DNA of 64,000 nt from Levilactobacillus brevis (GTDB lineage: Bacteria > Bacillota > Bacilli > Lactobacillales > Lactobacillaceae), in the NCBI GenBank assembly GCA_003666485.1, contig CP032931.1:2604001-2668000 (forward strand), given 5' to 3'. A program made the translations under genes and the position numbers. Positions 3,400 to 63,305 of this stretch are shown piece by piece (position 1 is the first letter of the stretch; each line of letters begins with the position of its first letter). Below the pieces are notes generated by a model that saw only the letters and a program-made list of their open reading frames with translations, searched no databases and was not told the DNA's origin.

Positions 3400-3594
3400 C
3401 TGTAGCCGGGAGTTCGCCAAATATGAGCTCACCCGTGGGAGTTCCCTTAGCGGCATGATTCACGCCGGTTAGGGAACTGGCGACTTTGAGACGCGGTCTT
3501 CCGGCTCAAAGTCGAGGAGTCGAGACCGCCCTTTGGCTCGGCCCGTCCGCCCACCGCGTTCCGGCTCATATTTGGCGGACGGGAGGCGGCTAGT
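3400..3594 (-). repeat. Structured intergenic repeat core, copy 1 (minus orientation)
   Basis: A full core copy reading on the minus strand from GCCGCCTCCCGTCCGCC to GGCGAACTCCCGGCTACAG. The outer arms CCAAATATGAGC and GCTCATATTTGG pair; the middle arms are CGACTTTGAG and CTCAAAGTCG; the inner hairpin is AGTTCCCTAA with TTAGCGGC-type partner ending GGGAACT. It is about nine-tenths identical by eye to the copies at 26268 and 39341. It lies between tsaE and pta, genes that are normally adjacent. Confidence 0.85.
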
Positions 3595-3657
3595 CACCGC
3601 CAAATCAAGTGACGCGTTAACCTGGTGATCAGTAACCATTTTCCCATCAGAATAAAT

Positions 3658-3697
3658 AATACCCGGACTGCTGATAAATAGCAATCCGGGTATCTTT
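3658..3697. terminator. Terminator downstream of pta
   Basis: ATACCCGGA and TCCGGGTAT form a 9 bp stem with the loop around CTGCTGATAAATAGCAA. The plus strand has CTTTTAATTT after the stem; the minus strand has TATTATTTATT. It probably ends the ung-pta transcript. Confidence 0.7.
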
Positions 3698-3733
3698 TAA
3701 TTTAGCAATTCATTTGTGTCCAGTAAATAAATG

Positions 3734-4708
3734 CTAGAGTGATTGGGCTGCGGTGATGATGGCAACCTTGTAAACGTCCTCTTCGTTGCAGCCACGAGAC
3801 AAGTCAGAAACAGGCTTGTTCAGGCCTTGCAGGATAGGACCGATGGCTTCAAAGCCACCAAAGCGTTGGGCAATCTTGTAGCCGATGTTCCCGGATTGTA
3901 ATTCTGGGAAGACAAAGACGTTGGCATGACCCGCAACCTTGGAGTCTGGGGCCTTTTGGGCACCGACGCTTGGTACAAAGGCAGCATCGAATTGTAATTC
4001 ACCGTCTAATGGCAGATCAGGTGCCGTTTCGTGGGCAATCTTCGTGGCTTCTTGAACCTTGGTGACCATATCACCTTTGGCAGAACCCTTGGTGGAGAAG
4101 CTTAACAAAGCAACCTTCGGGTCAATGTCAAAGACTTTGGCCGTGTGGGCACTTTCAATGGCAACTTCGGCCATGCCCGGTGCATCCAACTCAATGTTGA
4201 TGGCGCAATCAGCGAAGACGAAACGTTGGTCGCCCTTTTGCATGATGAAGGCCCCACTGATTCGGTGAACGCCTTCCTTGGTTTTAATGATTTGTAAGGC
4301 TGGCCGAACCGTGTCACCGGTTGCGTGAACGGCACCAGAAACCATGCCGTCTGCTTGGTCCATGTAGACCATCATCGTCCCAATGTAGTTGGGATCCTTT
4401 AACATTTCAGCAGCTTGTTCTGGCGTGTTCTTGCCCTTCCGCCGTGCAACCAAGGCGTCTAACATGGCCTTGTGTTGGTCAGCAGGAATGGCTTCAGGAT
4501 CCAGCAAGGTCACTGGACTTAAGTCAATATTGTTGTCCTTGGCAGTCGCTTCAACATCACTTTGCTTGCCTAATACGACGGATTTGATCAGTCCGTCAGC
4601 GGCTAACCGACTAGCGGCGCCTAAGACCCGCGCATCTTCTCCTTCAGGGAAAACGATGGTTTTGTTTTGTCCATTAATCTTTTGCTTGAGACTATCAAAA
4701 AGTTCCAT
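3734..4708 (-). CDS. pta: Phosphate acetyltransferase
   Basis: 324 residues, the short, single-domain phosphotransacetylase (PTA_PTB family). Visible family blocks are KTIVFPEGEDARVLGAA near the N-terminus, the MVSGAVHATGDTVRPALQII region, LLSFSTKGSAKG and the C-terminal LQGLNKPVSDLSRGC. It interconverts acetyl-CoA plus phosphate with acetyl phosphate plus CoA in the cytoplasm, feeding acetate kinase for ATP or, in heterofermenters, drawing acetyl phosphate to ethanol. ung ends 47 bases upstream on the same strand, consistent with the common lactobacillar ung-pta pair. Confidence 0.95.
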   Translation of the reverse strand: MELFDSLKQKINGQNKTIVFPEGEDARVLGAASRLAADGLIKSVVLGKQSDVEATAKDNNIDLSPVTLLDPEAIPADQHKAMLDALVARRKGKNTPEQAAEMLKDPNYIGTMMVYMDQADGMVSGAVHATGDTVRPALQIIKTKEGVHRISGAFIMQKGDQRFVFADCAINIELDAPGMAEVAIESAHTAKVFDIDPKVALLSFSTKGSAKGDMVTKVQEATKIAHETAPDLPLDGELQFDAAFVPSVGAQKAPDSKVAGHANVFVFPELQSGNIGYKIAQRFGGFEAIGPILQGLNKPVSDLSRGCNEEDVYKVAIITAAQSL

Positions 4709-4755
4709 AGATAATGACCTCCATAAAATATCCCACGAATCAATTCTCTCTCAAC

Positions 4756-5475
4756 TTATGCTTGGTTAGATGCTGAGTGCGGCCCCTCATCGACGGAAAC
4801 GTGCTCTGGCAGTTGCCAGTCGATCGGTGTTTCACCCAATGATGTCAGTGCGATGTTGGTTTTGGAAAATGGTTTGGACCCAAAGAAGCCGCGGTAAGCG
4901 GACAACGGACTTGGATGGGGCGCCTGCAAAACGATATTGGTTTGCGTATCGATCAAACTGATCTTCGACCGCGCGGCGCTACCCCACAGGATAAACACCA
5001 CAGGTTCCGGCCGTGCCGATAATTTGGCAATGGCCGCATCAGTCAGGCGTTCCCAACCTTTTCCTTGATGAGAAAAGGCCTTGCCGTCGCGCACGGTCAA
5101 CACGGAGTTCAACAGTAAGACACCCTGCTTGGCCCAGCTTTCTAGATAACCGTGGTGGACGGGCTTGATGCCCAAGTCACTCTCGAGTTCTTTATAGATA
5201 TTCTGCAATGATGGTGGAATCGGCGTTCCCGGTAGGACCGAGAAGCTACAGCCGTGCGCTTGACCAGGGTTGTGGTACGGGTCTTGACCCAAGATCACCA
5301 CTTTGACCTGGCTAAACGGCGTCCACTCGAACGCAGTAAAAATGTGATACATGTCCGGGTCGATTCGGTAGTGCTGATACTCTTCGACCAAGAATTGACG
5401 CAATTGTTGATAATACGTTTGCTCAAATTCGGGCTCGAGCACCGGCCACCAGTCATTATGAATAAACGGTTTCAT
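4756..5475 (-). CDS. ung: Uracil-DNA glycosylase
   Basis: About 239 residues from the ATG at 5475; a GTG three codons upstream is in frame, but GCGAGG is best spaced for the ATG. Family-1 UDG motifs are clear: the water-activating loop [17 protein letters not shown], the [10 protein letters not shown] block, the uracil-specificity asparagine region, and the DNA-intercalating loop [13 protein letters not shown]. It removes uracil from DNA after cytosine deamination or dUTP incorporation and starts base excision repair. It is first in the ung-pta group. Confidence 0.95.
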
Positions 5476-5599
5476 TCCCAACACCTCGCTTTTTATTCTA
5501 TCATAATGGCCGGCTAAATGATATTATTGAACGGCTTCTTGTGAAACATGTTAGAATGAGACTAATAAGATGCTAGTCAAGATTCAAAGGAGGGTCCCC

Positions 5600-6160
5600 A
5601 TGCGTACACTGTACCTAAATCAAGCCGCGCTGTCAGCGAAGGCCACCACGGTCATTCGCGATACCACGAATCACTCTCGCTACTTGTTAGTTGGCAAATG
5701 GGGGTTGCGTGCGGACGTCTTATCTGTCTACACAATTGCCGGTGCCCTTGAAGCGGAGGTCAAGCAAGAATCATTGGGCCTCCTCCCCCGCTTTCGGCTA
5801 ATCTACCATCGACAAACGGTCGGCCGCGTCGCCAAAACCTTTGGCGTGATTCGCGAGGTCCTGTTTGTCCGCGGCTTGAACTGGATCATCATGGGCAATC
5901 TGAACAGCGGTCACTTTAAAATTTATCACGGTCGCAATCTCATCGCGACTATCGATCAGGTCAGCCAATCTGGCGGGGGCACCACGGCCCTGGCCATCGA
6001 TCAGCCGGACCACGAGGCGCTGGTCATTTGCCTGGCCGCAATTCTCGACCGTTGGGCCAAACATCAATCCAAGGCGTTTAATCCGTTGCGGAGTCACGCT
6101 TGGACGCCTGCAACAGGCAACGTGGCGCAGTTCCGCGCTAAAGATGATCGGCGGCGTTAA
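5600..6160 (+). CDS. LURP-one-related (YxjI-type) protein
   Basis: 186 residues starting at the ATG at 5600, which has AAAGGAGGG immediately upstream; an in-frame upstream ATG at 5570 lacks a site. The chain alternates short beta strands (YLLVGKWGLRADVLSVYTI, RFRLIYHRQTVGRVAKTF, NLIATIDQV) and ends with one long helix (HEALVICLAAILDRW), the tubby-like LURP-one (DUF567) pattern. The molecular role of bacterial members is unknown; phospholipid scrambling or membrane association has been proposed for relatives. It is a single gene, with a shared terminator at 6268. Confidence 0.6.
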   Translation: MRTLYLNQAALSAKATTVIRDTTNHSRYLLVGKWGLRADVLSVYTIAGALEAEVKQESLGLLPRFRLIYHRQTVGRVAKTFGVIREVLFVRGLNWIIMGNLNSGHFKIYHGRNLIATIDQVSQSGGGTTALAIDQPDHEALVICLAAILDRWAKHQSKAFNPLRSHAWTPATGNVAQFRAKDDRRR

Positions 6161-6186
6161 GGACGTAACTGGGCTGAAATTGTGTT

Positions 6187-6250
6187 ATCCGCCTGCCGTC
6201 CGCCAAATATGGGTTGGAACGCGGTGGGCGGACCGGACCGAGCCAAGGTT
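6187..6250 (+). repeat. 5' fragment of the structured repeat, copy 2
   Basis: Only the left outer arm survives: CCGCCTGCCGTCCGCCAAAT, GGGTTGGAACGCGGTGGGCG and GACCGGACCGAGCC match the first 60 or so bases of the copy at 62522 closely. It then runs directly into a terminator. With its right half missing it cannot form the outer stem. Confidence 0.75.
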
Positions 6251-6267
6251 CAAACTTTAATTGCAAA

Positions 6268-6315
6268 CAAACAGCCATCCAACGAGACTTGACGTCTGAT
6301 TGGATGGCTGTTTTA
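6268..6315. terminator. Bidirectional terminator between convergent genes
   Basis: AACAGCCATCCAA pairs perfectly with TTGGATGGCTGTT; T-rich tails occur on both strands. It ends the plus-strand LURP-one gene and the minus-strand BspA-like gene. Confidence 0.85.
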
Positions 6316-6326
6316 TTCGTGCCCGA

Positions 6327-8090
6327 TTACGGGACAATCACTAATTTCTTATTCGCAGAAACGTACTGGCCGTTGGTCAATTGGAACCGTGTGGTCTTGT
6401 TGTGGGCGACAATTTTCTTGACCTTGAGTACTTGCCCCTTGCGGTAGTGCTTGACCTTGGTCTTCAACGCCTTTTGCCGGTAACCATTGAGACCGGTTGC
6501 CAGGACTTTGATCTTGGCCTGCTTCTTGGCGTAGTACACCGGCGCCACATAGCTGGCTTTGGCGGTGATATAACCAGTCTTGCCTGCTGACTTTGACTGG
6601 TGGTTCACGTCACGGACCTTGTAGCGTAAGTTGCCCTGCTTCGACTCGGCAATGCCGGTCACCACAAACATCGGCCGGTTGGTCCGTTTTTGCTTGCTGT
6701 ACCAGTGTTTGACGGTCTGTTTGCTAAAGTTCTTGCCGCTGTATAGGCCGATTTTCTTGGTGGCATATACCACGCTGGCCACTGGTGCGATGCCAGCCGC
6801 ATCCCCGCCCGATTGCAGGCTTTGTTGGTAGTGGAAGGTCACGGTCTGGGCTTGATCGGTAAAGGTGCCGTTGGTCTGGCCATCCGTCTTGCTCAGCCGG
6901 TAGCCGGCAAAAGACAGCTGGTCTGCTTGATAGGTCTCACCTACGCTACCGGTCAAGACTTGGTTATTTGCCAGTTGTTTGCCTTGTTCGTCCAGATAAC
7001 GCACCGTCACGGGTTGGGCCTGACTGGTCGTCGGCGGTGTAACTGGTGGTGTCGTCGGCTCAATGACCCGATTTACCGGTTGCCAGACGTAGGTCTCGAC
7101 GCCAGTGGGATTGTTGTCCCCTTTTCGGTACAGGTCCGTAATGTCGTTGCCTGTCGAGAACTCTTGTCCTAAAGGATTTTTCAGGGTTCCCGATCCAACA
7201 GCTTGCCACAGACCGGTGGATTCATCTGGAATTTCCTGAGCATCATTTAAACCTGGATGTGATGCTGGATTCGATCCCCAGTAGCTATTTGGTCCCAGAG
7301 TAATTTGCTGGATCTTTCTTGCATAATTGAACATCGCATACCCTGAATAGGTTGCTGGTGGTGCAAACTTTTCCAGATTGATTTTAGTGATACCAGAACC
7401 ATTCAACATAAAGGGCGCGCTTGATAGTTTGCTGAATGTCCCGTTCTTAAAGTCAATTTCATCCAAGTTTGCTGCTCCAAAAAACATCGAGCTGATGTTC
7501 ACAACATTATCCGTATTGAAATTAGACACATCTACACTCGTCAATGCTGTATTCTGATAAAACATGTTGTTCATAACGGTCACATGACTCGTGTCAAAGT
7601 GAGAGACATCCAGACTGGTCACTGCTGAATCCTGATAGAACATGCTATGCATATCCGTCGCCGCAGAAGTATCCAACTGGTCTAAGTTCACAAATTCCTG
7701 GACGTTGGGCAACTCACCAAAGAGCGTGCCGGCATTGGCTGCAGTTTTAATCTTTCCGTCAAGAATGACCCGCTTCACTAATTTTCCGGCCGCGACTGCA
7801 TCATCATTGGTCGGATTGGTCACGCCTTGTTGCAAGGCAATTTGGGTCGCAAGTTGTCCGGTGTTGCCTGGTATCGCCGGCGTTTCTTCCAGTGTCCCTG
7901 CGCCTAAGTGCAGGTCCCCCGCGGTCGTCAAATACCAATGGACCCCATAGTCACCTTGGTACTGAATCTCATCGGCCGTTGCCGCCTTAGCGGTGATGAC
8001 GGCCGGTTGGTGCGGCGTGATCATCTGACTGACTGGTTGCCCCATCCCAATTGTTAATCCTAATAGTAGTGTTGCTGCTTGCCATTTCAT
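6327..8090 (-). CDS. BspA-like secreted surface protein (DUF285 repeats, MucBP-like, DUF5776)
   Basis: 587 residues. Residues 1-37 form a signal peptide ending near ITAKA-AT. Residues about 130-230 hold BspA-type 25-residue repeats (MFYQDSAVTSLDVSHFDTS, MFYQNTALTSVDVSNFNTD, MFFGAANLDEIDF), the DUF285 family. A PT-rich linker follows near 345-360, then one MucBP-like domain (VTVRYLDEQGK ... FHYQQ), then a basic C-terminal wall-binding-like region with repeated Y-x-K/KTGYITAKASYV segments resembling DUF5776. There is no LPXTG, so attachment is probably non-covalent. A strong GAGGGGGG site precedes the ATG. The repeat-coding part (about 7200-7650) is visibly more AT-rich than neighbouring genes, which hints at horizontal origin. 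Likely an adhesin; the ligand is unknown. Confidence 0.8.
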   Translation of the reverse strand: MKWQAATLLLGLTIGMGQPVSQMITPHQPAVITAKAATADEIQYQGDYGVHWYLTTAGDLHLGAGTLEETPAIPGNTGQLATQIALQQGVTNPTNDDAVAAGKLVKRVILDGKIKTAANAGTLFGELPNVQEFVNLDQLDTSAATDMHSMFYQDSAVTSLDVSHFDTSHVTVMNNMFYQNTALTSVDVSNFNTDNVVNISSMFFGAANLDEIDFKNGTFSKLSSAPFMLNGSGITKINLEKFAPPATYSGYAMFNYARKIQQITLGPNSYWGSNPASHPGLNDAQEIPDESTGLWQAVGSGTLKNPLGQEFSTGNDITDLYRKGDNNPTGVETYVWQPVNRVIEPTTPPVTPPTTSQAQPVTVRYLDEQGKQLANNQVLTGSVGETYQADQLSFAGYRLSKTDGQTNGTFTDQAQTVTFHYQQSLQSGGDAAGIAPVASVVYATKKIGLYSGKNFSKQTVKHWYSKQKRTNRPMFVVTGIAESKQGNLRYKVRDVNHQSKSAGKTGYITAKASYVAPVYYAKKQAKIKVLATGLNGYRQKALKTKVKHYRKGQVLKVKKIVAHNKTTRFQLTNGQYVSANKKLVIVP

Positions 8091-8442
8091 GGTTAGCCCC
8101 CCTCAACGTGTAGCGATTTACCTTGCAGCGCCTCACCGTGATAGTAAGCGCTTCTAAAAAAGTGATGGTTCGCAGCGGTGCCGGCCTAGTCAACGTCCGG
8201 CAACCGTCTTCTATTCTGCTAGTGCTAGTTCCAAATCATGTTTCGTCCGCCACACGGCCCGTTGGCAGGCACAGCGAAAGTTAATCTGTATACTAGTCAC
8301 CCTGTTCACCTGTCATATAATAACACGATTTGTTAACAATTCCAATTACTTTTACTCATAATTTTTATCTAGTGATAATATTGTGGTGGACCAGCAGCCT
8401 AGACCCGCGTCACTAGCGGCTTTACGTGTTTCTTCAGTCAAT
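8091..8442. other. Long leader and promoter region of the BspA-like gene
   Basis: About 350 bp without a credible gene. The stretch 8310-8390 is clearly AT-rich (TTGTTAACAAATCG and TATTATATGAC on the minus strand), and is the probable promoter zone, which leaves a leader of roughly 200 bases. No riboswitch fold was recognised. Confidence 0.4.
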
Positions 8443-8483
8443 TAAAAAAGCGTGCTTGAGAACACTGCCTCAAACGCGCCGAT
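8443..8483 (-). terminator. Terminator of the ABC ATPase gene
   Basis: On the minus strand GCGCGTTTGAG pairs with CTCAAGCACGC, followed by TTTTTTAATTG. Confidence 0.75.
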
Positions 8484-8523
8484 GCCACAAATTCACTTAA
8501 CTGCCATATACACTGCCACGGCC

Positions 8524-9267: not shown

Positions 9268-9307
9268 CCTATTAACCTCCCAAATATACCAATACCTATT
9301 TTATGTA

Positions 9308-9352
9308 AAAAGGGACAGCCGAACCAACCAAGTTCAGCTATCCCCTTTATTT
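9308..9352 (-). terminator. Terminator of the secG-est-rnr-smpB group
   Basis: On the minus strand AAAGGGGATAGCTGAAC pairs with GTTCGGCTGTCCCTTT, then TTTTACAT. It lies just after the smpB stop. Confidence 0.85.
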
Positions 9353-9355
9353 TAA

Positions 9356-9829: not shown

Positions 9830-9844
9830 GTTCAGTCACCTCGC

Positions 9845-12241: not shown

Positions 12242-12258
12242 TATCGATTCCTCGTTAT

Positions 12259-15036: not shown

Positions 15037-16280
<1,244 letters not shown>

Positions 16281-16335
16281 CCATTCCCCCTCGTTAAAGT
16301 TAACTCCGTAAGAAATGGTCGAAAATTTTATTTTG

Positions 16336-16374
16336 CACAAAAAAAGAAGCAAGCCCATCACTGGACCTGCCTCT
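16336..16374 (-). terminator. Terminator of eno
   Basis: On the minus strand GAGGCAGGTCC pairs along its whole length (with G-U pairs) with GGGCTTGCTTC, followed by TTTTTTT. Confidence 0.85.
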
Positions 16375-22494: not shown

Positions 22495-22566
22495 TGCGCC
22501 CGGAGGGAATCGAACCCCCATTTCAAGAACCGGAATCTTACGTGCGATCCATTACACTACGGGCGC
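22495..22566 (-). tRNA. tRNA-Arg (anticodon CCG), copy 1
   Basis: On the minus strand the acceptor stem GCGCCCG pairs with CGGGCGC; the D-arm is GTGTAATGGATCGCAC, the anticodon loop TTCCGGT (anticodon CCG, reading CGG), and the T-arm GGGGGTTCGATTCCCTC. The discriminator is A and CCA is not encoded. Its promoter is at 22597-22625. Confidence 0.93.
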
Positions 22567-23642: not shown

Positions 23643-23714
23643 TGCGCCCGGAGGGAATCGAACCCCCATTTCAAGAACCGGAATCTTACGTGCGATCCAT
23701 TACACTACGGGCGC
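23643..23714 (-). tRNA. tRNA-Arg (anticodon CCG), copy 2
   Basis: Identical over the mature sequence to the copy at 22495: same acceptor stem GCGCCCG, anticodon loop TTCCGGT and T-arm, no encoded CCA. No strong terminator hairpin is seen right after it. Confidence 0.93.
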
Positions 23715-26092: not shown

Positions 26093-26267
26093 CACTAAAC
26101 ACTTGAGTCCCACCACTAACGGATCGGTTGAGCTTGTCTTTTCGATTCAGAGATTAAGACTAACCAAAGATTGCAAACGCAAAATACCTGATAATACCTA
26201 GCTGACGGGGATTGCAGACATTAAAGTTAGCCCCCCATCACCTGCGGCTGTCAGAGATGTGGGGGCT

Positions 26268-26457
26268 GGCCGCCTCCCGTCCGCCAAATATGAGCCGGAA
26301 CGCGGTGGGCGGCGGGACAAGCCAAGAAGCGGTCTCGTCTCCTCGACTTTGAGCCGAAGTTCGCGTCTCAAAATCGCCAGTTCCCTAACCGGCATGAACC
26401 ATGCCGCTAAGGGAACTCCCACGGCTGAGCTCATATTTAGCGGACTCCCGGCTACAG
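26268..26457 (+). repeat. Structured intergenic repeat core, copy 3
   Basis: Begins GGCCGCCTCCCGTCCGCC and ends GCGGACTCCCGGCTACAG. Outer arms CCAAATATGAGC and GCTCATATTT; middle arms CGACTTTGAG and CTCAAAATCG (one mismatch); inner hairpin AGTTCCCTAACCGGCATG with CATGCCGCTAAGGGAACT. The first 43 or so bases are identical to copy 1. Confidence 0.88.
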
Positions 26458-26639
26458 AGATGTTTCACTAGTCGGTTAGGTTAGTCCTTGGCAACAGGTG
26501 AACTACAGTCACATCTAATCCAATTCGGTGGGACTGAGAAGCGCCAATCCGTCGGCGTCAACCGGCAATTCAGCGCCCCCCAGTGGTGTTGGCCCAGTTA
26601 GTGGCATCGCTGAAATGGCAAACATTAATGGCAATCTGC

Positions 26640-26825
26640 CACGTAGCCGTGAGTGAGCTAAATTTGGACTCAGCAGTGGGCGTTTTCAAGTGAACTGCTT
26701 GAAAACGGGCGTCTTCGAGACGTGGTTTTCGGCTCGAAGCGAGGTTGAAGACCGCTCTTGGGCTTCGACCGGTCCTTCCCACAGCGTCACGGTCCAAATT
26801 TGGCGAACGGTCAGGCGGCCAGCAC
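26640..26825 (-). repeat. Structured intergenic repeat core, copy 4 (minus orientation)
   Basis: Diverged subtype. Outer arms are now GTCCAAATTTGG and CTAAATTTGGAC, middle arms CTTCGAG and CTCGAAG, and the inner hairpin CGTTTTCAAG with CTTGAAAACG is perfect over 10 bp. All three differ from copy 3 yet remain paired. Confidence 0.85.
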
Positions 26826-26964
26826 GAACTATCTTGCGTTCAGAAACTAATTTTCCGTCATGAACTCAAGTGTCACAATGGCCCTGGCTACTTTCAAGCT
26901 TGCAATTTTTAAAGACTAACAGAAAAAACGGCCCCCAGCACCATTAGCTGAAAGTCGCTTTCCC

Positions 26965-39223: not shown

Positions 39224-39340
39224 GGTTCACGTCAGCTCCTTTAGTTTTTGTCTCGTGGTTCAGTGATTGCTTTCAGCTTACCACTTTTCCGTGGTCGAAT
39301 TCATCTATTCCTACCTGAAATAGTCAGGCATTGGCTGGGC

Positions 39341-39531
39341 TGACCGCCTCCCGTTCGCCAAATATGAGCTGGAACGCGGTGGGCGGCGGGACGAGCCAAA
39401 AAGCGGTCTCGTCTCCTCGTCTTTGAGCCGAAAGACCGCGTCTCAAAGACGCCAGTTCCCTAACCGGCATGAACCGTGCCACTAAGGGAACTCCCACGGC
39501 TGAGCTCATATTTGACGAACTCCGGCTACAT
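39341..39531 (+). repeat. Structured intergenic repeat core, copy 5
   Basis: Begins GACCGCCTCCCGTTCGCC and ends ACGAACTCCGGCTACAT. Middle arms CGTCTTTGAG and CTCAAAGACG are perfectly paired; relative to copy 1 the central T-A pair is replaced by A-T, a compensatory double change. The right flank (ATGTGGATGAACTTTGCC onward, about 39550) matches the right flank of the minus core at 63094 read on the other strand. Confidence 0.88.
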
Positions 39532-54233: not shown

Positions 54234-54281
54234 ATCATTATTTTAATCATCAATTGGCAGTAATAGGTGTTTCACCCCGCA

Positions 54282-55398: not shown

Positions 55399-55445
55399 GT
55401 TTGTTGGCTCCTTTTTAAGTTATTTTTTAATCCGACACAGTGTGT

Positions 55446-55637
55446 GCTGGCCGCCTTGCCGTTCGCTAGATATGAGTCGGGACGCTGTGGGCGGACGGGC
55501 CGAGCCAAAGGACGGCCTCGACCCTCAGTTCGGAGCCGAAAATCACGTCTCCAAACTGCCAGTTCTCCAACCGGCAAACTTCACCGCTTGGAGGACTCCC
55601 ACGGCTGAACGCACATCTAGCGAACTATCGGTTACGG
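55446..55637 (+). repeat. Structured intergenic repeat core, copy 6
   Basis: Begins GCTGGCCGCCTTGCCGTTCG and ends GCGAACTATCGGTTACG. Diverged subtype: outer arms GCTAGATATGAG and CGCACATCTAGC, inner hairpin AGTTCTCCAACCGGC with ACCGCTTGGAGGACT. The inner stem differs from copy 3 (AGTTCCCTAA) on both sides, and pairing is largely kept. Confidence 0.82.
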
Positions 55638-55984: not shown

Positions 55985-56170
55985 CACGTAGCCGTGAGTG
56001 AGCTAAATTTGGACTCAGCCGTGGGAGTTTGCAAGTGGTCTGCTTGGAAACTGGCGTCTTCGAGACGCGACTTTCGGCTCGAAGCGAGGTTGAAGACCGC
56101 CCTTTGGCTTCGACCGGTCCTTCCCACAGCGTCACGGTCCAAATTTGGCGAACGGTAAGGCGGACAGCAC
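55985..56170 (-). repeat. Structured intergenic repeat core, copy 7 (minus orientation)
   Basis: Same subtype as copy 4. Outer arms CTAAATTTGGAC and GTCCAAATTTGG; middle arms CTTCGAG and CTCGAAG; inner AGTTTGCAAG with CTTGGAAACT (one mismatch). Its right-hand flank ends AGCTCGCAACCTTTAG near 56208, matching the outer terminus of the long element. Confidence 0.85.
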
Positions 56171-56237
56171 GGACTACCTTCCGTTCAAGCTCGCAACCTT
56201 TAGTTAAGAAGCTGGCGCCCTTGGTCCCACTCTTTTC

Positions 56238-56271
56238 ACAAAAACGAGGCGAAAGAATCTCTTCCGCCTCG
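56238..56271 (-). terminator. Terminator of secA
   Basis: On the minus strand ACGAGGCGGAA pairs with TTTCGCCTCGT (one G-U) around GAGATTC, followed by TTTTTG. Confidence 0.85.
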
Positions 56272-56282
56272 TCCGTTCCCGT

Positions 56283-58646
56283 TTATCGGGTAATATTTTG
56301 TCGAATTTCAGACTTCATGAACAGGCGCGTGGCGTCGTAGTCGATGTCAGAGATCATTTCCCCAAACATCCGGAATCCGTCTTGTTGGTATTCAACCAAC
56401 GGGTTCAACTGACCATAACCCCGTAACCCAATTGATTGTCGTAATTGGTCCATGGCATCAATGTGGTCGGTCCAATGAGAGTCCACGCAACGCAAGAGCA
56501 CAACCTTTTCGAATTCTAGCATTTGTGCTGGATCGTACAGTTGCTTTTGCTTTTCAGCGTAAACGTCTTCGGCTAAGCCCATGAAGAAGGCCTTGATCTC
56601 GTCTGCGGTCTTGCCCTTCAAGTCATCCAAACTAATCTTGTCTGGGGAAACCATCGCGGAAATCCCGAAGTCCAGTAAGGTATCCAAGTCCCAATCGGAT
56701 TGGTCACCCTGCGTATGCAAGTTAACCACCCGGTCAACGGTCCGTTTGATCATTGGCATTAAGACCCACTTCAATGACTTGTCTTGGTTAATGACTTGGT
56801 TCCGTTCGCCATAAATGACGTCCCGTTGTTGGCGCATCACATCATCGTATTGCAAGACGTTCTTCCGGGAATCATAGTTGTTCCCTTCAACCCGCTTTTG
56901 GGCGGATTCCACTTGCTTGGTGATCATGCGACTCCGGATAACGGCATCTTCGCCATCCACGTTCATCCGTTCCAAGAAGGCTTTGACTCGGTCAGAACCG
57001 AATCGCCGCATCAAATCATCTTCCAAGGACAGGTAGAATTGCGTCATACCAGGGTCCCCTTGACGACCGGAACGTCCACGAAGCTGGTTATCGATCCGCC
57101 GTGATTCGTGACGTTCAGTCCCGATAACGGCCAATCCACCAATTTCAACCACGCCGGGTCCCAATTTGATATCGGTCCCACGCCCAGCCATGTTGGTGGC
57201 GATGGTAACAGCACCCTTTTGACCGGCATTTTGAATGATGTCGGCTTCCTTGGCGTGGTTCTTCGCGTTCAAGACCACGTGAGGGATGTTTTCCTGATCC
57301 AACCGTTGTGACAGGTATTCGGACGTTTCCACGGCCACGGTCCCGATCAACATCGGTTGCCCCTTGGCGTGCAGCGTCTTGATTTCCTTAACGACCGCGT
57401 TGAACTTGGATTCCAGAGTTGGGTACAGCAAGTCAGGTTGATCGACCCGGACGACCGGTTTGTTGGTCGGCACAGTGATAACTTCCATGTTGTAGATTTC
57501 CCGGAATTCTTCAGCTTCGGTCTTGGCCGTCCCAGTCATCCCGGAGAGCTTCTTGTACATCCGAAATAAGTTTTGGTACGTAATGTTGGCCATGGTCTTG
57601 GTTTCTTCTTGAATCTCGACGCCTTCCTTGGCTTCAATGGCCTGGTGCAGGCCGTCAGAGTAACGACGACCGTCCATGACCCGCCCAGTGAAGGAATCAA
57701 CGATCAAGACTTCACCATCTTGTACCACATAATCCTTATCGCGTAGCATGATAAAGTTGGCCCGCAGCGCTTGGTCCATGTGGTGGGTCAAGGCCGTGTT
57801 GTCCGTGTCATATAAGTTCTTCAAGTTGAAGTACTTTTCGGCCTTTTCAATCCCGGTGTCGGTCAACGCCACCGTCTTGGATTCCAGGTCGATCTTAAAG
57901 TCGTCTTTTTCGTGCAGCGTCTTTGCGAAACGGTCAACCCGTTGATACAGGGCACTTGTCCCTTCGGATTGGCCAGAAATAATCAATGGCGTCCGGGCTT
58001 CATCAATTAAGATGGAGTCAACTTCATCGACAATCGCAAAGTTCAATGGTCGTTGAACCATATCTTCTTTGTACACCACCATGTTATCCCGCAGGTAATC
58101 GAACCCGATTTCCCCGTTGGTTGAATAAGTGATGTCCGCATTGTAGGCTTCGCGCTTTTCTTCAGGAGACTTTTCAGCGGAGTTTAACCCCACCGTCAAG
58201 CCCATCCAAGTGTACAGTTCACCCATTTCAGTTGCGTCCCGCGCAGACAGGTATTCGTTAACCGTAACCACGTGAACCCCTTTACCCGCTAAGGCATTCA
58301 GGTACACGGGCATCGTGGCGGTCAAGGTTTTCCCTTCACCGGTCTTCATTTCGGAAATGTTCCCTTCATGAAGCACAATTCCCCCCATGATCTGCACGTG
58401 GAAAGGATAGAGACCGAGGACCCGCTTGGCACCTTCACGGATAGCCGCAAAAGCCTCAGGCAGTAAATCGTCCAACGTTTCGCCGTCTTGATAACGCTTC
58501 TTAAATTCAGGCGTTTTTGCTTTCAAATCGTCGTCTGAAAGTTCTGCGTACTCGTCAGCGTAAGCACCAACTTGGTCCGCTAATTTACTGAGGCGTCGTA
58601 AAGTCCGGCGATCACTTTCGACCCATCGTTTCAAAATATTTGCCAT
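56283..58646 (-). CDS. secA: Preprotein translocase ATPase SecA
   Basis: 787 residues, the compact SecA of lactobacilli, lacking the C-terminal zinc-binding tail of longer homologs. NBD1 Walker [42 protein letters not shown], the preprotein cross-linking domain, NBD2 with [17 protein letters not shown] and [10 protein letters not shown], and the helical scaffold/wing region to the end. It drives Sec-dependent export through SecYEG (secG at 13.1 kb). Terminator at 56238; a promoter is probable in 58680-58790. Confidence 0.97.
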
Positions 58647-58951
58647 GTGAGAATTCCCTTCAGTACATTTAGTAAGTCTATTTAAAGTTACCCATTTATT
58701 TGCAATAAATCAACCTACATTTTACCACTATCCGGGCCAAGATGAAACAAATCTCCACAGCCGCCGCACAGTGAAGCGGTTTCTTTGGCGTGATAGCAAC
58801 TACAAATGGGGTTAACAAAATTAGTTTAAACCTTTATCTGTTTCGCCATTTTTCAGAAAATGACCTTCCGACTAGCATACCAGTTCGAGATTAGCCCCTG
58901 ATTGCGTGCAGATTAAATCTAGATGTCACCTGCCTGTAGCCTACCACAGGC
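58647..58951. other. secA leader and upstream gap
   Basis: About 305 bp with no gene. A TAAAAT -10-like hexamer about 17 bp from TTTCAT on the minus strand (near 58722-58750) could be the secA promoter. Nothing else recognised. Confidence 0.35.
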
Positions 58952-58988
58952 CATAAAAAAAGCACCGCAGGCACGCGGCGCTTCGTAA
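58952..58988 (-). terminator. Terminator of hpf
   Basis: On the minus strand AGCGCCGC pairs with GCGGTGCT (with one mismatch) around GTGCCT, followed by TTTTTTT. Confidence 0.85.
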
Positions 58989-58999
58989 ATTAAACTTAC

Positions 59000-59557
59000 T
59001 TAATCTTGATTATCGGCTTCGATCAAACCATACCGACCGTCATTGCGGCGGTAGACGATGCTGATACCATTGGTTTCAGCATCTTCATAGATAAAGAAGT
59101 CATGGCCTAGCATGTCCATTTGTAAGACGGCCTCTTCGTTATCCATTGGCTTCAACGAAACGCGCTTGGTGCGGACAACTTCTAATTCGTTACTGTCAGC
59201 TGATTTGTCACTGTCAGTATCTGGTGAGAAGTCGAGATTCTTGTATCCCTTCTCCCGTGACTTACGGTTGACTTTGGTCTTGTACTTGCGAATTTGACGT
59301 TCCAGCTTGTCCGTAACCAAGTCAACACTTGCATATAAGTCCGGAGAGGTTTCCTCTGCCCGTAATGTCAAGTATGGGAGTGGGATTGTTACTTCAACCT
59401 TCGCTGTCTTGTTTTGGTAGACCTTCAGGTTGACATGCGCAATTGCCTCAACATTGTTGTCGAAATATTTCTCCAACTTGCTGATACGCTTTTCAACGTA
59501 ATCCCGTATTGCGTCAGTAACTTCGATGTTTTCACCACGAATATTAAATGTGAGCAT
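59000..59557 (-). CDS. hpf: Long-form ribosome hibernation promoting factor
   Basis: 185 residues. N-terminal S30AE domain (NIRGENIEVTDAIRDYVEKRISKLEKYFDNN..., basic helix LERQIRKYKTKVNRKSREKG) and a C-terminal dimerisation domain from about 128 (VVRTKRVSLKPMDNEEAVLQMDMLGHDFFIYEDAETNGISIVYRRNDGRYGLI). This long form joins two 70S ribosomes into a 100S dimer in stationary phase. Its promoter is TTGTTT-17-TATAAT at 59643, with a hairpin in the leader. Confidence 0.96.
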   Translation of the reverse strand: MLTFNIRGENIEVTDAIRDYVEKRISKLEKYFDNNVEAIAHVNLKVYQNKTAKVEVTIPLPYLTLRAEETSPDLYASVDLVTDKLERQIRKYKTKVNRKSREKGYKNLDFSPDTDSDKSADSNELEVVRTKRVSLKPMDNEEAVLQMDMLGHDFFIYEDAETNGISIVYRRNDGRYGLIEADNQD

Positions 59558-59600
59558 AAAACTTCTCTCCCTTCAGCCAAGAGATCACTTGGCTTGCTCA

Positions 59601-59671
59601 GCATTAGAAGGACCACTCTTCTAATATGCTTTGCTTACACTTATTATAATAGAAAGCCCTACCAGAAACAA
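59601..59671 (-). promoter_or_regulatory. hpf promoter and leader hairpin
   Basis: Minus strand TTGTTT (59666-59671), 17 bp, TATAAT (59643-59648). The leader then contains GCATATTAGAAG and CTTCTAATGC (59601-59629), a strong stem with the loop AGTGGTC, about 45 bases before the start; it has no T-run, so it is not a terminator. Confidence 0.75.
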
Positions 59672-59697
59672 TTAATCTAATTATTTTTTCGGGGCAA

Positions 59698-60375
59698 CTA
59701 ACGCGCTAATGTCAGGCTGGTAACCGCTTTCGCCCCACCCAAATAAATTTGATCGGCGGCATGGCGCAACGTCCGCCCCGTCGTATAGACGTCATCTAGC
59801 AGTAAAACCCGGCGATTTGTCAGGAGTGACGCGGCATTGGGCGCCAAGGTAAAGGGCTGGGCTGTCCGCAACCGTGCCGCCCGGTCCTTAGCCGATTGCG
59901 GCTGTGCCTTGCGCGTGGCTTGGACCAACAACGCCTGTTGAAAGGGTTGGGTCTGTAGCCAGCCGGTGACCTGATTGAAGCCCCGCTGCTGCCAGGTCGC
60001 CTGATCCACCGGAATTGGCACCAACACGTCGTAGGTCTCTTTGGCCAGAGCCAAGCGCAACGGTTCCTGTAAGACCCGACGCAGCGTATAATCCCCCTGA
60101 AATTTGTACTGCTGCATGTACGCCTTCATCGCCGCGTCATAGACGTATACCGCGTGATTGACCAGTGGCCGCCCCGACCAGCGCTGACAATCCCGACAGA
60201 CGGTCTCATCCGTTTGCTGGCGGCCACACTGCGGACAGTGCTGACTGGAAATGGGTGTCAGGCGCGTTTGACACGCTCGACAGACCGCCGACCTGATCAA
60301 CGGGCCCCAGCGCCAGAGCTGGCTGACTGTCACCACGCCCCCGAGACGGCGGCCACACCAGACACACGCATTCAT
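59698..60375 (-). CDS. comFC: Competence protein ComFC (phosphoribosyltransferase-like)
   Basis: 225 residues. Two zinc-finger pairs at the N-terminus (CVWCGRRL, CRACQTRL, CPQCGRQQ, CRDCQRW) and a PRT domain with VLLLDDVYTTGRTLRHAAD near the C-terminus (PRPP-binding loop). ComFC cooperates with ComFA in DNA uptake and is homologous to GntX. It overlaps comFA by four bases (ATGA). No competence sigma-factor box was found upstream of the pair. Confidence 0.93.
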   Translation of the reverse strand: MNACVWCGRRLGGVVTVSQLWRWGPLIRSAVCRACQTRLTPISSQHCPQCGRQQTDETVCRDCQRWSGRPLVNHAVYVYDAAMKAYMQQYKFQGDYTLRRVLQEPLRLALAKETYDVLVPIPVDQATWQQRGFNQVTGWLQTQPFQQALLVQATRKAQPQSAKDRAARLRTAQPFTLAPNAASLLTNRRVLLLDDVYTTGRTLRHAADQIYLGGAKAVTSLTLAR

Positions 60376-61688
60376 GGTCGGCCCCCTTGACGCCGGCCCT
60401 GCAGATTCAGACGGGCAATCATCCCCCGGGCCAACCGCACCCGTCGCGTATAGCTGTGGCAGTAGCTGGTCACCTCGCCCGTGGGAAATTGGGCGCTTCG
60501 ACCGACCCGGCCGGCAATTTGCACCAACGCGGCCGTGGAAAAGACCGGGTCGTCCCCACCTAAGATCACGACCGCCACGTTGGGAAAGGTCACACCGCGC
60601 TCCAAAATCGTTGTCGTCACTAGAAATGAGACCTGACGATCACGCATGGCTTGGACCTTTTCCTGGCGGGACTCATCAGCCGCATGAACCGTCACCCCGC
60701 CAGCAATGCCGGCCCGGTGTAACGCTCGATCCACCAGCGCCAAATCGGCCACGTGTGGCACGAACAACAAGAAGCGCTGACCGGCCTGTTGATACGCCCG
60801 CAATTGCCGAATCAGCCGCAACGGTAATCTGCCATGCCCCAGCTGCTCACGCCACCGCCAGGCAATCTGCAAATCGATTTGCGGCAACAAATGGCCGTGA
60901 TAGCGCAACGGCACGTAGGTCACCGCCAACGTCTTTCGGGCCACGCGTTTTTGCAAGCCCTCACCAGGCGTTGCCGTTAGTAGCAAGTGACAACCCGTGG
61001 GCTTCTGGGCATGATCGATGGCGCGTTTTAACATGGGACTGGTGGCCAGCGGAAAGGCGTCGACCTCATCAACCACGATCAGGTCAAAGGCCGCTTGAAA
61101 CCGCAGCAGCTGATGTGTCGTGCAAATGGTCAGTGGACAATACCGGTAAGGCTGCGGCTGATTCCCATACAACACGGTCTGTGGCACGTCCGCAAAGGCT
61201 GACTGAAGTCGGGGCGCCAGTTCCAGACACACATCGACTCGCGGCGAGGTCCAAGCGACCCGCCAGCCCTGACCCAACGCCCACGCCAGCGCCGGGTACA
61301 CGATTTCCGTCTTCCCCGCGCCGGTGACTGCCCACAACAAGTGATTCGTCTGCGACTGGACGTGGGCCAATACGGACTGGGCCGCCACCTGCTGCTGGGC
61401 GCTCAGTTCACCATCCCAGGTCAGCCCACCATTGGCCAACTTTGGTAACTGATTCGGCTCAGGAATAGTGTATAATTTATGCTGAGAGGTCAAGCGCCCC
61501 AACTGTAGGCATTGCCGGCAATACCAGGCCTGATTGGCCAACCGATCCGTGGGCCCTAACCAGTGGCCACAGCGCTGACATTGCAACCGGGACCCCAGCG
61601 CCTTGAGCGCAGGCGTGGCCGTGAGATCAGGGGCAGGCGCCGCACGAAACGGGAGTTGCCGACCAAAAAACGCTTCCTTGTCTGTCAT
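60372..61688 (-). CDS. comFA: Competence ATPase/helicase ComFA
   Basis: 438 residues. A four-cysteine zinc finger near 38-80 (CQRCGHW, WYCRQCLQLG), then DEAD-type helicase motifs: Walker A AVTGAGKTEIVYPAL, Ia SPRVDVCLELAPRL, VVDEVDAFPL (motif II as DEVD), LLLTATPGE (III), and the C-terminal VTTTILERGVTFPNVAVVILGG with QIAGRVGRS. ComFA is the cytosolic ATPase that helps pull single-stranded DNA through ComEC; ComEC is not in the window. Its start is divergent from yigZ. Confidence 0.95.
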   Translation of the reverse strand: MTDKEAFFGRQLPFRAAPAPDLTATPALKALGSRLQCQRCGHWLGPTDRLANQAWYCRQCLQLGRLTSQHKLYTIPEPNQLPKLANGGLTWDGELSAQQQVAAQSVLAHVQSQTNHLLWAVTGAGKTEIVYPALAWALGQGWRVAWTSPRVDVCLELAPRLQSAFADVPQTVLYGNQPQPYRYCPLTICTTHQLLRFQAAFDLIVVDEVDAFPLATSPMLKRAIDHAQKPTGCHLLLTATPGEGLQKRVARKTLAVTYVPLRYHGHLLPQIDLQIAWRWREQLGHGRLPLRLIRQLRAYQQAGQRFLLFVPHVADLALVDRALHRAGIAGGVTVHAADESRQEKVQAMRDRQVSFLVTTTILERGVTFPNVAVVILGGDDPVFSTAALVQIAGRVGRSAQFPTGEVTSYCHSYTRRVRLARGMIARLNLQGRRQGGRP

Positions 61689-61764
61689 CCATCTTCCTCC
61701 TCTAGGTGTCTCTATAGATAACTCCGTAATAACGAGCCGATATTTTTTTGAAAGGTGTTTTTAA

Positions 61765-62427
61765 ATGGAAACTGATTACTTAACCATTCAAGCCAGCGGC
61801 AACCACGAGCTGGAAATCAAAAAATCACGCTTCATTGGCGATCTGGGCCGCGTGACGTCTGAGGATGAGGCCAAGGCTTTCATCGCCGCCGTCACTGCCC
61901 GAGAACCTAAGGCGACCCACCACTGCTGGGCCTACCTGATTGGTGAACACGACGAGATCCAACGGGAAAGTGACAACGGTGAACCCTCTGGGACCGCGGG
62001 CGTCCCCATTCTGACGGTGCTACAGCGTAATCACCTGCACAACGTCATTGCAGTCGTCACCCGGTACTTCGGGGGCATCAAGCTGGGCGCCGGCGGGTTG
62101 ATCCGCGCCTACAGCAATAGCACCTCCACGGCAATCGAAGCGGTCGGCGTGGTCAAATTGGTCCGCCAACAAGCCATGACGCTGACCGTGGACTACCCCC
62201 ACTTTGACCGGCTCAACCATTACCTGACGGAAAATAACATCGCCATCTTGGACACCAGTTATACCGATCAGGTCGCCATCACGATTGCCGTGGACCTCGC
62301 GGACGTCGCGGCAACGCAAACGGCCATTACCAATTTGCTGAGTGACCGGCTGACTCTCAAGCTCGGCGACATCGCCTACAACGAGGTTCCGGTCGAAATC
62401 AACGCCAGCAGCCGGAGCGATGACTGA
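61765..62427 (+). CDS. IMPACT family protein YigZ/YvyE
   Basis: 220 residues. N-terminal UPF0029/IMPACT domain (KKSRFIGDLGRVTSEDEAKAFIAAVTAREPKATHHCWAYLIG, DNGEPSGTAGVPILTVLQR, VVTRYFGGIKLGAGGLIRAYSNSTSTAI) and a C-terminal ferredoxin-like DUF1949 domain. Members bind ribosomes or nucleic acid; the function is not settled. It is divergent from comFA, as in many Bacillota, and starts at ATG behind GAAAGGTG. Confidence 0.9.
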   Translation: METDYLTIQASGNHELEIKKSRFIGDLGRVTSEDEAKAFIAAVTAREPKATHHCWAYLIGEHDEIQRESDNGEPSGTAGVPILTVLQRNHLHNVIAVVTRYFGGIKLGAGGLIRAYSNSTSTAIEAVGVVKLVRQQAMTLTVDYPHFDRLNHYLTENNIAILDTSYTDQVAITIAVDLADVAATQTAITNLLSDRLTLKLGDIAYNEVPVEINASSRSDD

Positions 62428-62521
62428 TATTGCCACAACTAAAGATTGAAATCGACATGAACCATTGTCACCACACGGTTCATGCCGTTAAACTTAGTCG
62501 TTTACAGCCCCGTAGTGGGGA

Positions 62522-62713
62522 CTGGTCGCCTACCGTCCGCCAAATATGGGTCGGAACGCGGTGGGCGGACCGGACCGAGCCTGAAAAGCGGTCTCGGCCT
62601 CGCTTTGAGCCGATGGCCCACGTCTCCAAGACGCCAGTCTCCTAAGCGGCATGAAACGCGCCGCTAAGGAGACTCCCACGGCTGAACCCATATTTGGCGA
62701 ACTCTCGGCTACA
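62522..62713 (+). repeat. Structured intergenic repeat core, copy 8
   Basis: Begins CTGGTCGCCTACCGTCCGCC and ends GGCGAACTCTCGGCTACAA. Outer arms CCAAATATGGGT and CCCATATTTGG; inner hairpin AGTCTCCTAAGCGGC with GCCGCTAAGGAGACT (one mismatch). Its first 60 or so bases closely match the fragment at 6187. Confidence 0.88.
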
Positions 62714-62878
62714 AGAGTACGTGCTACTAGCAGTCGGCTTAGTCCCAGATAGCAGGCAGAATCTCTGGCTGACACAAGCACTTGCTTTCACTAACATATT
62801 AGTAGACAGAACACTGTCGTTCCAGAAATCAGTCCGTTAACGCTACTTACAACCTGTTCACAATTGTCCATATATGAA

Positions 62879-62919
62879 AGGCGCCAACCTGCTCTCTCCA
62901 GCAGATTGGCGCCTTTTGC
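62879..62919. terminator. Bidirectional terminator between yigZ and lysR
   Basis: GGCGCCAACCTGCT pairs with AGCAGATTGGCGCC around CTCTCC, followed by TTTTGC on plus and TTTCATAT on minus. Confidence 0.85.
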
Positions 62920-62929
62920 ATTGTCTCAA

Positions 62930-63305
62930 TCTAAAGGTTGCAAGTACAAAAACACCTGATAATACTCAGCTGACAAGGATTGTGAACATGAAATTAGTCC
63001 ACACCGCCATCTGTAGCAGTCAGAGATTACCCGCAAAATTTGCAAGGAAATTTCTGAAATGGCAACGTTCATCCACATTAGTAGGCAACCTGTCACGTAG
63101 CCGTGAGTGAGCTAAATTTGGACTCAGCCGCGAGGTTGAAGACCGCCTTTTGGCTTCGACCGGTCCTTCCCACAGCGTCACGGTCCAAATTTGGCGAACG
63201 GTAAGGTGGCCAGCACAGAGCAAGGTGCGTTCAAAGACTAAATTTATCCCTGTAAACCCTGGTGTCACCATAAATTTAGCTACTTTTAAACTTGCAACCT
63301 TTAGA
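62930..63305. repeat. Complete long element with terminal inverted repeats
   Basis: About 376 bp, beginning TCTAAAGGTTGCAAGT and ending with its exact reverse complement (16 bp perfect). It contains a minus core (63094-63216) with an internal deletion. There is no open frame with a ribosome site and no clear target-site duplication in the flanks. The architecture resembles a non-autonomous MITE. Confidence 0.8.
63094..63216 (-). repeat. Structured repeat core, copy 9, with a 65 bp internal deletion
   Basis: Aligned with the copy at 55985 the sequence jumps from CTCAGCCG straight to CGAGGTTGAAG, removing the inner hairpin and half of the middle one while leaving the outer arms (CTAAATTTGGAC / GTCCAAATTTGG) intact. 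Confidence 0.85.

Follow-up and report, generated by a model that had tools for sequence, protein, structure and literature searches.

A MITE-like element family in Levilactobacillus brevis with head-to-head cores whose fold is conserved across genera

Cores and complete elements in the window

The window, a stretch of 64 000 nucleotides of Levilactobacillus brevis (contig CP032931.1, positions 2 604 001 to 2 668 000), contains a dispersed repeat for which a preliminary description had listed eight cores (at 3400, 26268, 26640, 39341, 55446, 55985, 62522 and 63094) and a fragment at 6187. All are present, in both orientations, the covarying arm pairs quoted for individual copies were found in those copies, and BLAST comparisons of the window copies with one another gave E-values down to 5e-83. 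However, the list was one core short, as model R2 found nine matches in the window, all with E-values of 4.7e-11 or better, including a C-type core on the minus strand at 3127–3304 (57.8 bits, E=2.7e-13) that is head to head with the A-type core at 3409–3583 on the plus strand (the 3400 copy, found with models R1 and R2 and the first row of alignment A2). The remaining A-type cores are all on the minus strand, at 26276–26448 (the 26268 copy, E=1.6e-44), 39350–39523 (the 39341 copy, E=1.1e-45), 62532–62705 (the 62522 copy, E=3.8e-40) and, in a diverged form, 55458–55628 (the 55446 copy, E=5.3e-37), while those of B type are on the plus strand, at 26650–26811 (the 26640 copy, E=2.7e-33), 55995–56156 (the 55985 copy, E=5.4e-33) and 63104–63202 (the 63094 copy, E=4.7e-11). 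The last of these is a genuine copy but is internally deleted, the match covering 99 nt compared to 162 nt in each of the other two. The piece at 6187 (6186–6246, minus strand) was incorrectly defined as a 5′ fragment; read on the core's own strand it is the 3′ part, sharing 88.5 % identity over 61 nt with the 3′ part of the copy at 3380–3620.

Though the copies described before are real, their extent was underestimated, as each is the core of a longer element. The A-type and B-type cores at 26276–26448 and 26650–26811 are head to head within a complete MITE-like element of 748 bp (26164–26911) in the clpP-whiA gap, which has the ends CCAAAGATTGCAAA and TTGCAATTTTTA and is flanked by an exact 8-bp target-site duplication, AAGACTAA (26156–26163 on the left and 26912–26919 on the right), detected by script. 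No ORF within this element reaches 80 aa. Short ORFs of 82–107 aa cross other cores in the window (at 39324, 55346, 62530 and 63020) and were taken as chance. A second element, 374 bp long (62931–63304), has perfect 14-bp ends (CTAAAGGTTGCAAG and CTTGCAACCTTTAG) and no recognisable target duplication (4/8).

Complete elements have the inverted ends CTAAAGGTTGCAAG (also written CTAAAGGTTGMAAGT) and 8-bp duplications, and are 390–749 bp long where the target duplication is good and 335–875 bp when all those with both ends are considered. Among the 15 elements with both ends in the stretches fetched from this genome, the duplication matched at 8/8 positions in four and at 7/8 in two, against 0.39 and 0.46, respectively, expected from permuted flanks with self-matches included. 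The window element at 26164–26911 becomes a fifth exact case when its right end is moved one base inward, and in nine of the 15, including the 374-bp element, no good 8-bp duplication is present in the frame that was applied. In a second genus, both ends were found at 10 of 20 loci, with duplications of 8/8 in two of the ten and 7/8 in one. One of the end-pair surveys used the best-matching pair of ends at each locus, without a permuted control.

Presence and absence at an orthologous position was seen at one site, the clpP-whiA gap, which is 932 bp here and 176 bp in L. suantsaiihabitans, where the element is missing. When the element and one copy of the duplication were removed, the two gaps aligned with a score of 113.5, compared to a maximum of 35 in 100 shuffles, and the target octamer itself was not recognisable in the empty gap. 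In L. angrenensis, the same gap is occupied by a different member of the family, 641 bp long, with an exact duplication (TAAAAAAA) and a head-to-head pair of cores.

In sister species, transposases of the IS4 family (NCBIfam NF049925) were found with the same or similar ends, CTAAAGGTTGAAAGT or a variant. At locus L121, an exact end is adjacent to a transposase that is truncated by the contig edge, at L122 both ends (13/15) surround a gene broken in two frames, and at L123 the transposase gene is intact and the ends differ at 3/14 positions; no target duplication was visible around the intact copy. Unlike the elements described here, these transposons encode a transposase, and in the copies of 1558 and 1562 bp the sequence outside the gene is too short to accommodate a core. 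In the L. brevis genome, no close transposase was found, the best match being an IS1380-family protein (26 % identity, E=2.3e-4). The corresponding IS (14 hits) was rejected as the partner, as it belongs to the IS1380 family and no such ends were present at the borders of the two copies checked.

Hence, the elements are short and non-coding with inverted ends and target duplications and are present or absent at an orthologous site, and sister species harbour an autonomous relative whose ends are the same or similar. On these grounds, the family is a MITE-like, non-autonomous DNA transposon that has transposed. The shared ends further suggest that its members are moved in trans by the IS4-family DDE transposase of sister species, which was not found here.

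Copy number, gene context and distribution

Searching this genome and related Lactobacillaceae with the models, as had been proposed, revealed many further copies. At least 124 distinct cores of the A and B types were found in the stretches fetched from the L. brevis genome, and as only 15 elements retain both ends, most copies appear to have decayed or to have spread otherwise. Neighbouring cores were arranged head to head in 24 of 27 pairs in this genome and 20 of 21 across the family, and never tail to tail. Gene context was recorded using the best 131 rows of alignment A4, itself made from the best 150 of 226 matches, and 4 of the 124 cores were dropped as a flanking gene was missing from the stretch. 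All but one of the remaining 120 are outside ORFs of over 600 nt, with 40 in gaps between convergent genes, 71 in tandem gaps and 9 in divergent gaps. In the tandem gaps, 34 cores were co-oriented with the genes and 37 were not, and for this reason a function in cis on one particular neighbouring gene was rejected. An intrinsic terminator was also rejected; by eye no T-run follows the cores, and of two terminator-like sites, compared to 1.0 expected, one is outside the element. Carriage by plasmids or phages was not supported, as there were no matches in plasmids to a 351-base query with an A core or to an f2 element, in phages to a 401-base query with a B core, or in either to an f4 core.

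Related structures were found in 33 of 35 genomes of the genus and 11 of 40 genera of the family, including Lactiplantibacillus, and weaker relatives were found in three further families, some of them overlapping the model of the streptococcal sRNA SSRC8. That the cores belong to no named family held with respect to Rfam, where the only matches in the window were two tRNAs, no Rfam 15 model reached its gathering score over the window cores, and loci L001 and L173 were blank up to E=1. Among the titles and starts of abstracts listed from the open-licence literature, none described the repeat.

Covariation and strand asymmetry of the core fold

The core of approximately 180–195 nt folds into a long outer stem enclosing three hairpins. 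The outer stem and two hairpins noted before are correct as far as they go, but a third hairpin, bearing the most conserved loop (GAGACCGC..GGCTC), was overlooked. Kissing of the loops of hairpins 3 and 4 (GCGGTCT and AGACCGC in the A type) was considered and dropped, as by eye it is not kept in the other types. Model R1 includes only A types because hairpins 3 and 4 of B-type cores were wrongly placed in the first alignment, A1.

Covariation in the cores is very strong. In 17 A-type cores, 99.0 % of positions predicted to pair do so, compared to 94.2 % in 500 shuffles, and 18 pairs have changed on both sides, compared to 6.4; none of the 500 shuffles reached either observed value. When the partners were slid by 1–3 columns as a control, no more than 41.9 % were paired. 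Across several genera (66 cores, in an alignment fitted to the model), 49 of 53 pairs have changed on both sides and pairing is still 95.6 %. The earlier view that selection acts on the fold, and that the changes are not passive decay, is upheld within this genome, in a second genus and across genera.

In order to distinguish the two DNA strands, changes from a Watson-Crick pair to G-U were compared to those to A-C. In 77 A-type cores (the distinct sequences among the best 81 rows of A4, in an alignment fitted to the model), there were 77 changes to G-U and 22 to A-C, while the corresponding numbers at unpaired positions were 115 and 146 (p=8e-9). The same excess is present in the 17-row alignment, which was built without reference to structure (27 G-U and 4 A-C cells over 53 pairs). 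The second genus gave 40 and 20, with 19 and 56 at unpaired positions (p=1.9e-6), in a count over distinct sequences in which 40 of 40 were kept, and the opposite arms, on the other DNA strand, gave 72 and 10 cells, with 18 and 26 at unpaired positions (p=6e-8). In distant copies the excess is weak or absent (24 to 15 cells in f2, 13 to 18 in f4 and 7 to 3 in f5). There is too little variation among the B-type cores of this genome for the comparison, with 5 to 2 cells, the sole figure used from a grouping that mixed A rows, other types and opposite-strand matches. Where G-U outnumbers A-C on one of the strands, a single-stranded, RNA-type fold is favoured over a DNA palindrome. Predicted folding energy was lower on the sense strand for 70 of 77 and 56 of 63 cores (the latter being the 66 rows of A5 minus three from this genome, loci L014 and L031), but shuffled controls were nearly alike (63 of 77 and 53 of 63) and this measure was dropped as evidence.

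Interpretation and comparison with known systems

The reading that we consider probable is of a MITE-like transposon, moved in trans, that carries two outward-reading, RNA-folding domains made by read-through and serving as a protective 3′ RNA module. The typical element has two structured domains with their 5′ ends facing each other, each of which folds on the strand that reads outward, and this appears best explained as RNA. The weakest step is the source of that RNA, which may be read-through from neighbouring genes, given that no promoter was found in the one element scanned (0.3 would be expected by chance, so the scan had little power) and that copies lie mostly beyond gene ends with unbiased orientation. 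With the head-to-head layout, read-through from either side would give a single domain with the correct fold, in the distal half of the element. That domain could form a compact, probably protein-bound module that would terminate or protect the transcript and render insertions tolerable to the host.

Rather less likely, though the best placed of the alternatives, is that the cores are independently expressed sRNA genes related to SSRC8 that were captured and multiplied by the transposon and act in trans. Northern signals and mapped ends are reported for SSRC8 in S. pyogenes in the part of that study available (PMC3675131), and all ten f4 and f5 loci examined include a match to RF02616 (SSRC8_2) on the sense strand of the core (E=1.4e-10 to 8.5e-4). 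However, these matches are all below the gathering score (48.5 bits at most, compared to 72) and cover only part of the model, and there are none in the four f2 loci examined, in the window or, up to E=1, at L001 and L173. The single element scanned has no promoter-like site, and more than 100 copies per genome is unlike a dedicated sRNA gene.

The possibility that the fold acts as single-stranded DNA in transposition or replication, as in REP sequences and the ends of IS200/IS605, seems improbable. In each arm it is the strand reading outward that folds, and such symmetry would be natural in the ends of a transposon; G-T pairs are tolerated in DNA hairpins too. However, judging by the ends and the 8-bp duplications, the enzyme would be a DDE transposase that works on double-stranded DNA, and the REP tag GTAG is not conserved at the 5′ foot of the core (GTAG, TTAG, TCAG, TAAG, TGAG and ATAG all occur). 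Slightly more doubtful is the proposal that no RNA is involved and the paired changes are a mutational by-product, via arm-to-arm copying in replication, or reflect DNA cruciforms. Though the arms are long inverted repeats and double changes with no intermediate observed are common (95 Watson-Crick to Watson-Crick events), such processes treat the strands alike, while a one-strand excess of G-U over A-C is present in the two genera, and in the second it extends to both arms. Unpaired positions are also kept, with the bulged A of GAGACC present in all 56 rows with letters of the model-fitted alignment and the G that follows ACC in all 55. We give least credence to an ordinary MITE whose structure is a functionless relic of inverted duplications since, though MITE transcripts are often well folded according to the portion of a review available (PMC10969869) and tolerance alone would yield few divergent gaps, the divergence of relics should erode pairing and not leave it as high as it is across genera.

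A more tentative proposal, which we regard as no more than a possibility, is of an RNA domain present throughout the Lactobacillales that travels mainly in small DNA transposons and is under selection as RNA on the outward-reading strand of both arms. The ends of these transposons are unrelated (CTAAAGG.. in Lactobacillaceae and GGTTCT.., likewise with 8-bp duplications, in another family), and in one further family the domain would have become established next to purine genes as an RNA of low copy number, with SSRC8 as a member. SSRC8 and the f4 and f5 copies share two neighbouring hairpins on the same strand (GGAAAC..GAGACC..GGCTC..AGG..GAGACCGC..CCGTCC), but the likeness is below the cut-off and is not seen for the window's own cores. 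If true, the link would tie a known but unexplained sRNA to a mobile ancestor. Intergenic sequence in these genera is also explained by the family, which should help in annotating genomes and interpreting transcript ends, and with over 100 cores in the genome of one lactic acid bacterium the purpose of RNA structure in a MITE becomes testable.

Among other bacterial repeats, bcr1 repeats also have a conserved fold, and REP/BIME sequences occur as pairs in inverted orientation. In the portions of the sources available, bcr1 is likewise a high-copy, mobile, non-coding repeat found group-wide in the Bacillus cereus group, but its mobility is tied to a TTTAT motif and neither 8-bp duplications nor twin divergent cores are mentioned there (PMC6542083). 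REP/BIME are high-copy palindromes, but the units are 20–40 bp with a GTAG or CGTC tag (PMC3733652, accessible part), compared to approximately 190 nt without a conserved tag here. Though the 5′ GTAG of some cores is suggestive, what the cores share is mostly AGCCG and the preceding bases vary; this assignment was rejected, the unit size also differing. The pneumococcal BOX, RUP and SPRITE repeats are similarly multi-copy and enriched between convergent genes, and BOX is modular and tightly folded when transcribed, but in the text available they are reported in S. pneumoniae, to a lesser extent in S. mitis and very rarely in other streptococci (PMC3049150), while the fold described here is found in 11 of 40 genera. 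MITEs in general are likewise short, non-coding, intergenic, multi-copy and IS-derived, with terminal inverted repeats and target duplications, and the part of the review available notes stable stem-loops in transcripts but includes neither 'lactobacill' nor 'compensatory' (PMC10969869); this family differs from them in having two divergent domains, each with several hairpins, in which compensatory changes are seen across genera. Bacterial MITEs are usually seen as short, decaying by-products of ISs. Here the inner fold is kept across genera while the sequence turns over, which suggests that the RNA shape of a mobile element is being preserved and that either the element or its host benefits in some way from the RNA (or single strand).

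Distribution and fold of the cores

The preliminary description had listed eight copies of the core in the window (at 3400, 26268, 26640, 39341, 55446, 55985, 62522 and 63094) and a fragment at 6187, and all were found at those places. A model search gave nine matches, namely these eight copies and a C-type core at 3127-3304. When the genome to which the window belongs was searched (3,096,874 bases in five contigs), an A-type query had at least 43 matches, 40 near full length (40 of 272 candidates scored), and a B-type query at least 44, 38 near full length (40 of 192 candidates scored). The stretches fetched from this genome hold 124 distinct A or B cores, and C-type cores are additional.

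Using R1, a core model built from A types, matches were found in 33 of 35 genus genomes (E 1e-3; up to 79 matches scored per genome) and in 64 of 301 family genomes, representing 11 of 40 genera (E 1e-4), while a second model, R2, matched 37 of 395 order genomes, 12 of the 37 lying outside the family. A core match was present in 12 of 80 named loci around whiA, from Levilactobacillus cerevisiae, lanxiensis, angrenensis, koreensis, andaensis, namurensis, zymae and acidifarinae, one Lactobacillus sp., and Lactiplantibacillus mudanjiangensis, fabifermentans and nangangensis (partial and weak in the last). The WhiA adjoining one copy is 90-98 % identical to that of the 24 closest loci (22 Levilactobacillus, two Lactobacillus sp.) and the next share no more than 79 % identity, which places the window's genome in Levilactobacillus.

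On the strand on which the core runs GTAGCCG...CGGCCAG, it folds into an outer stem of 17 pairs with five further inner pairs that close a multi-branch loop bearing hairpins H2, H3 and H4. Two of these hairpins had been described previously but the third was overlooked. A structure-independent alignment of 17 A-type cores has 99.0 % of its cells paired and changes on both sides in 18 of 53 pairs. An alignment of 66 cores, three of them from the window's genome and the others drawn from further species and genera, was fitted to the model and its counts are thus biased towards structure; it has 95.6 % of cells paired versus 68.3 % when shuffled (slid versions, at most 46.4 %), a covariation score of 0.612 versus 0.159, and changes on both sides in 49 of 53 pairs. 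The fold is kept while the sequence changes. Constancy is greatest in the H4 loop, AGACCGC..GGCT, where every row with a letter has the bulged A (56 of 56) and the G that follows it (55 of 55).

Read from the opposite strand, each G-U pair becomes an A-C mismatch; equal frequencies of the two would therefore be expected from template switching or for a DNA palindrome. In 77 A-type cores examined by parsimony, Watson-Crick pairs became G-U 77 times and A-C 22 times, the corresponding directions at unpaired positions being 115 versus 146 (Fisher p 8e-9). Forty cores from a second genus of the family, aligned with MAFFT and given the structure of the folded consensus, had 40 versus 20 (unpaired 19 versus 56, p 1.9e-6), and the other arms of 20 second-genus elements, which lie on the other DNA strand, had 72 versus 10 (unpaired 18 versus 26, p 6e-8), counted as cells and not independent events. 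Across genera, 116 cells were G-U and 23 A-C, where composition predicts 1.1 to 1. Hence, within the Lactobacillaceae, a fold on one strand is well supported. Distant copies, from three families outside the Lactobacillaceae, show little or no excess (f2, 24 to 15; f4, 13 to 18; f5, 7 to 3), the B types of the window's genome varied too little (5 to 2 cells), and an energy comparison between strands was uninformative. A protective role for the core RNA, a putative transcript, is our guess. One complete element was scanned, and no promoter-like site was seen (0.3 expected by chance).

Transposition of the elements

Complete elements have the termini CTAAAGGTTGCAAG and CTTGCAACCTTTAG. Among 15 from the fetched own-genome stretches, 8-bp duplications were exact in four and matched at 7 of 8 positions in two more (permuted expectation 0.39 and 0.46, respectively). 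The element at 26164-26911, between clpP and whiA, has AAGACTAA on either flank. This gap is 932 bp here versus 176 bp in L. suantsaiihabitans, and the 756-bp difference is accounted for by the 748-bp element and a single duplication; after their removal, the gaps align with 123 identities in 150 aligned bases and a score of 113.5 (no more than 35 in 100 shuffles). The target octamer was unrecognisable in the empty gap in this alignment. The corresponding gap in L. angrenensis (754 bp) contains a different, 641-bp member with termini CTGAAGGTTGAAAG and CTTTCAACCTTTAG, an exact duplication, TAAAAAAA, and two head-to-head cores. In the second genus, both ends were found in 10 of 20 loci, two of these with exact duplications and one at 7 of 8. 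Transposition of the element family is thereby shown.

Of the neighbouring cores separated by under 450 nt, 24 of 27 pairs in the window's genome and 20 of 21 in the family-wide set are arranged head to head, and none is tail to tail; hence, the typical element consists of two arms (end, tail, core) meeting 5' to 5' across a spacer that ranges from tens of nt to a few hundred. Divergent gaps are avoided (9 of 120 cores) and tandem gaps show no orientation preference (34 to 37). At two own-genome loci (L012 and L021), the left flank of an A core resembles, by eye, a reversed B-type 3' flank, and these chimeric elements look as if arms had recombined or a core had flipped.

Elsewhere in the window, successive TTCTGGTTCGGT-like direct repeats of 12 bp occupy 15503-15747; they overlap a minus-strand ORF (15447-16361) and likely encode a length-variable protein segment. 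Two minus-strand tRNA genes (22495-22566 and 23643-23714), 1148 nt apart, score equally and are 99 % alike over 75 nt.

A candidate transposase

Allowing one mismatch, CTAAAGGTTGCAAGT was found in 26 of 35 genus genomes, up to 33 times per genome, versus 10 of 35 and at most three times for its reversed control. In sister species, the end sequence adjoins transposase genes or their remnants. It is exact at L121, where the gene is cut by the contig edge. At L122, a 1558-bp copy, 13 of 15 positions match on each side of the gene, which is broken in two frames. The 1562-bp copy at L123 is intact and has perfect 14-bp ends, 3 of 14 positions differing from CTAAAGGTTGAAAG; no target duplication was seen there. 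The model NF049925, 'IS4 family transposase', recognises the L123 protein with a score of 464.9 bits (cut-off 250). A search of the window's genome found no close transposase. From the ends, we infer that this IS4-family enzyme moves the elements.

At two further loci (L105 and L113), an end together with part of a transposase-like coding region was seen by eye; these appear to be IS4-family copies with internal deletions and are possibly intermediates between IS and MITE. An IS1380-family element has 14 hits in the window's genome (L131, L135, L137-L140 and eight further places) and was probably recently active, given that L131 shares 99.9-100 % identity over ~1650 bp with the other five copies fetched.

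Possible relationship to SSRC8, and classification as MITEs

Of 11 f2 cores checked, four belong to elements of 281-283 bp that have different ends (GGTTCT..AGAACC) and are flanked by exact 8-bp duplications, a tally with no permuted control; MITE-like elements of this type and length, with the same kind of core, lie at L338, L345, L352 and L353. The f4/f5 core resembles GGAAACTTTGAGACC..AGG..GAGACCGC..CCGTCC. In 10 of 10 f4/f5 loci tested, it is overlapped on the same strand by a partial match to the Rfam model RF02616 (SSRC8_2; E 1.4e-10 to 8.5e-4, all under the gathering score), and none of four f2 loci tested had such a match. Passages in PMC3675131 report a Northern blot signal and mapped ends for Streptococcus pyogenes SSRC8. 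The f4/f5 structures could be either true homologues of SSRC8 or look-alikes in two hairpins. Some f4 copies lie just upstream of purE (L330, L331, L333, L334 and L337, core from 1501 on; purE checked for L330 and L331) or purF (L347, purF checked), and these pur-adjacent structures, at one or two copies per genome, are possibly a fixed host RNA.

The elements are MITEs, a variant that stands apart in its twin divergent structured domains and in the depth of their conservation.
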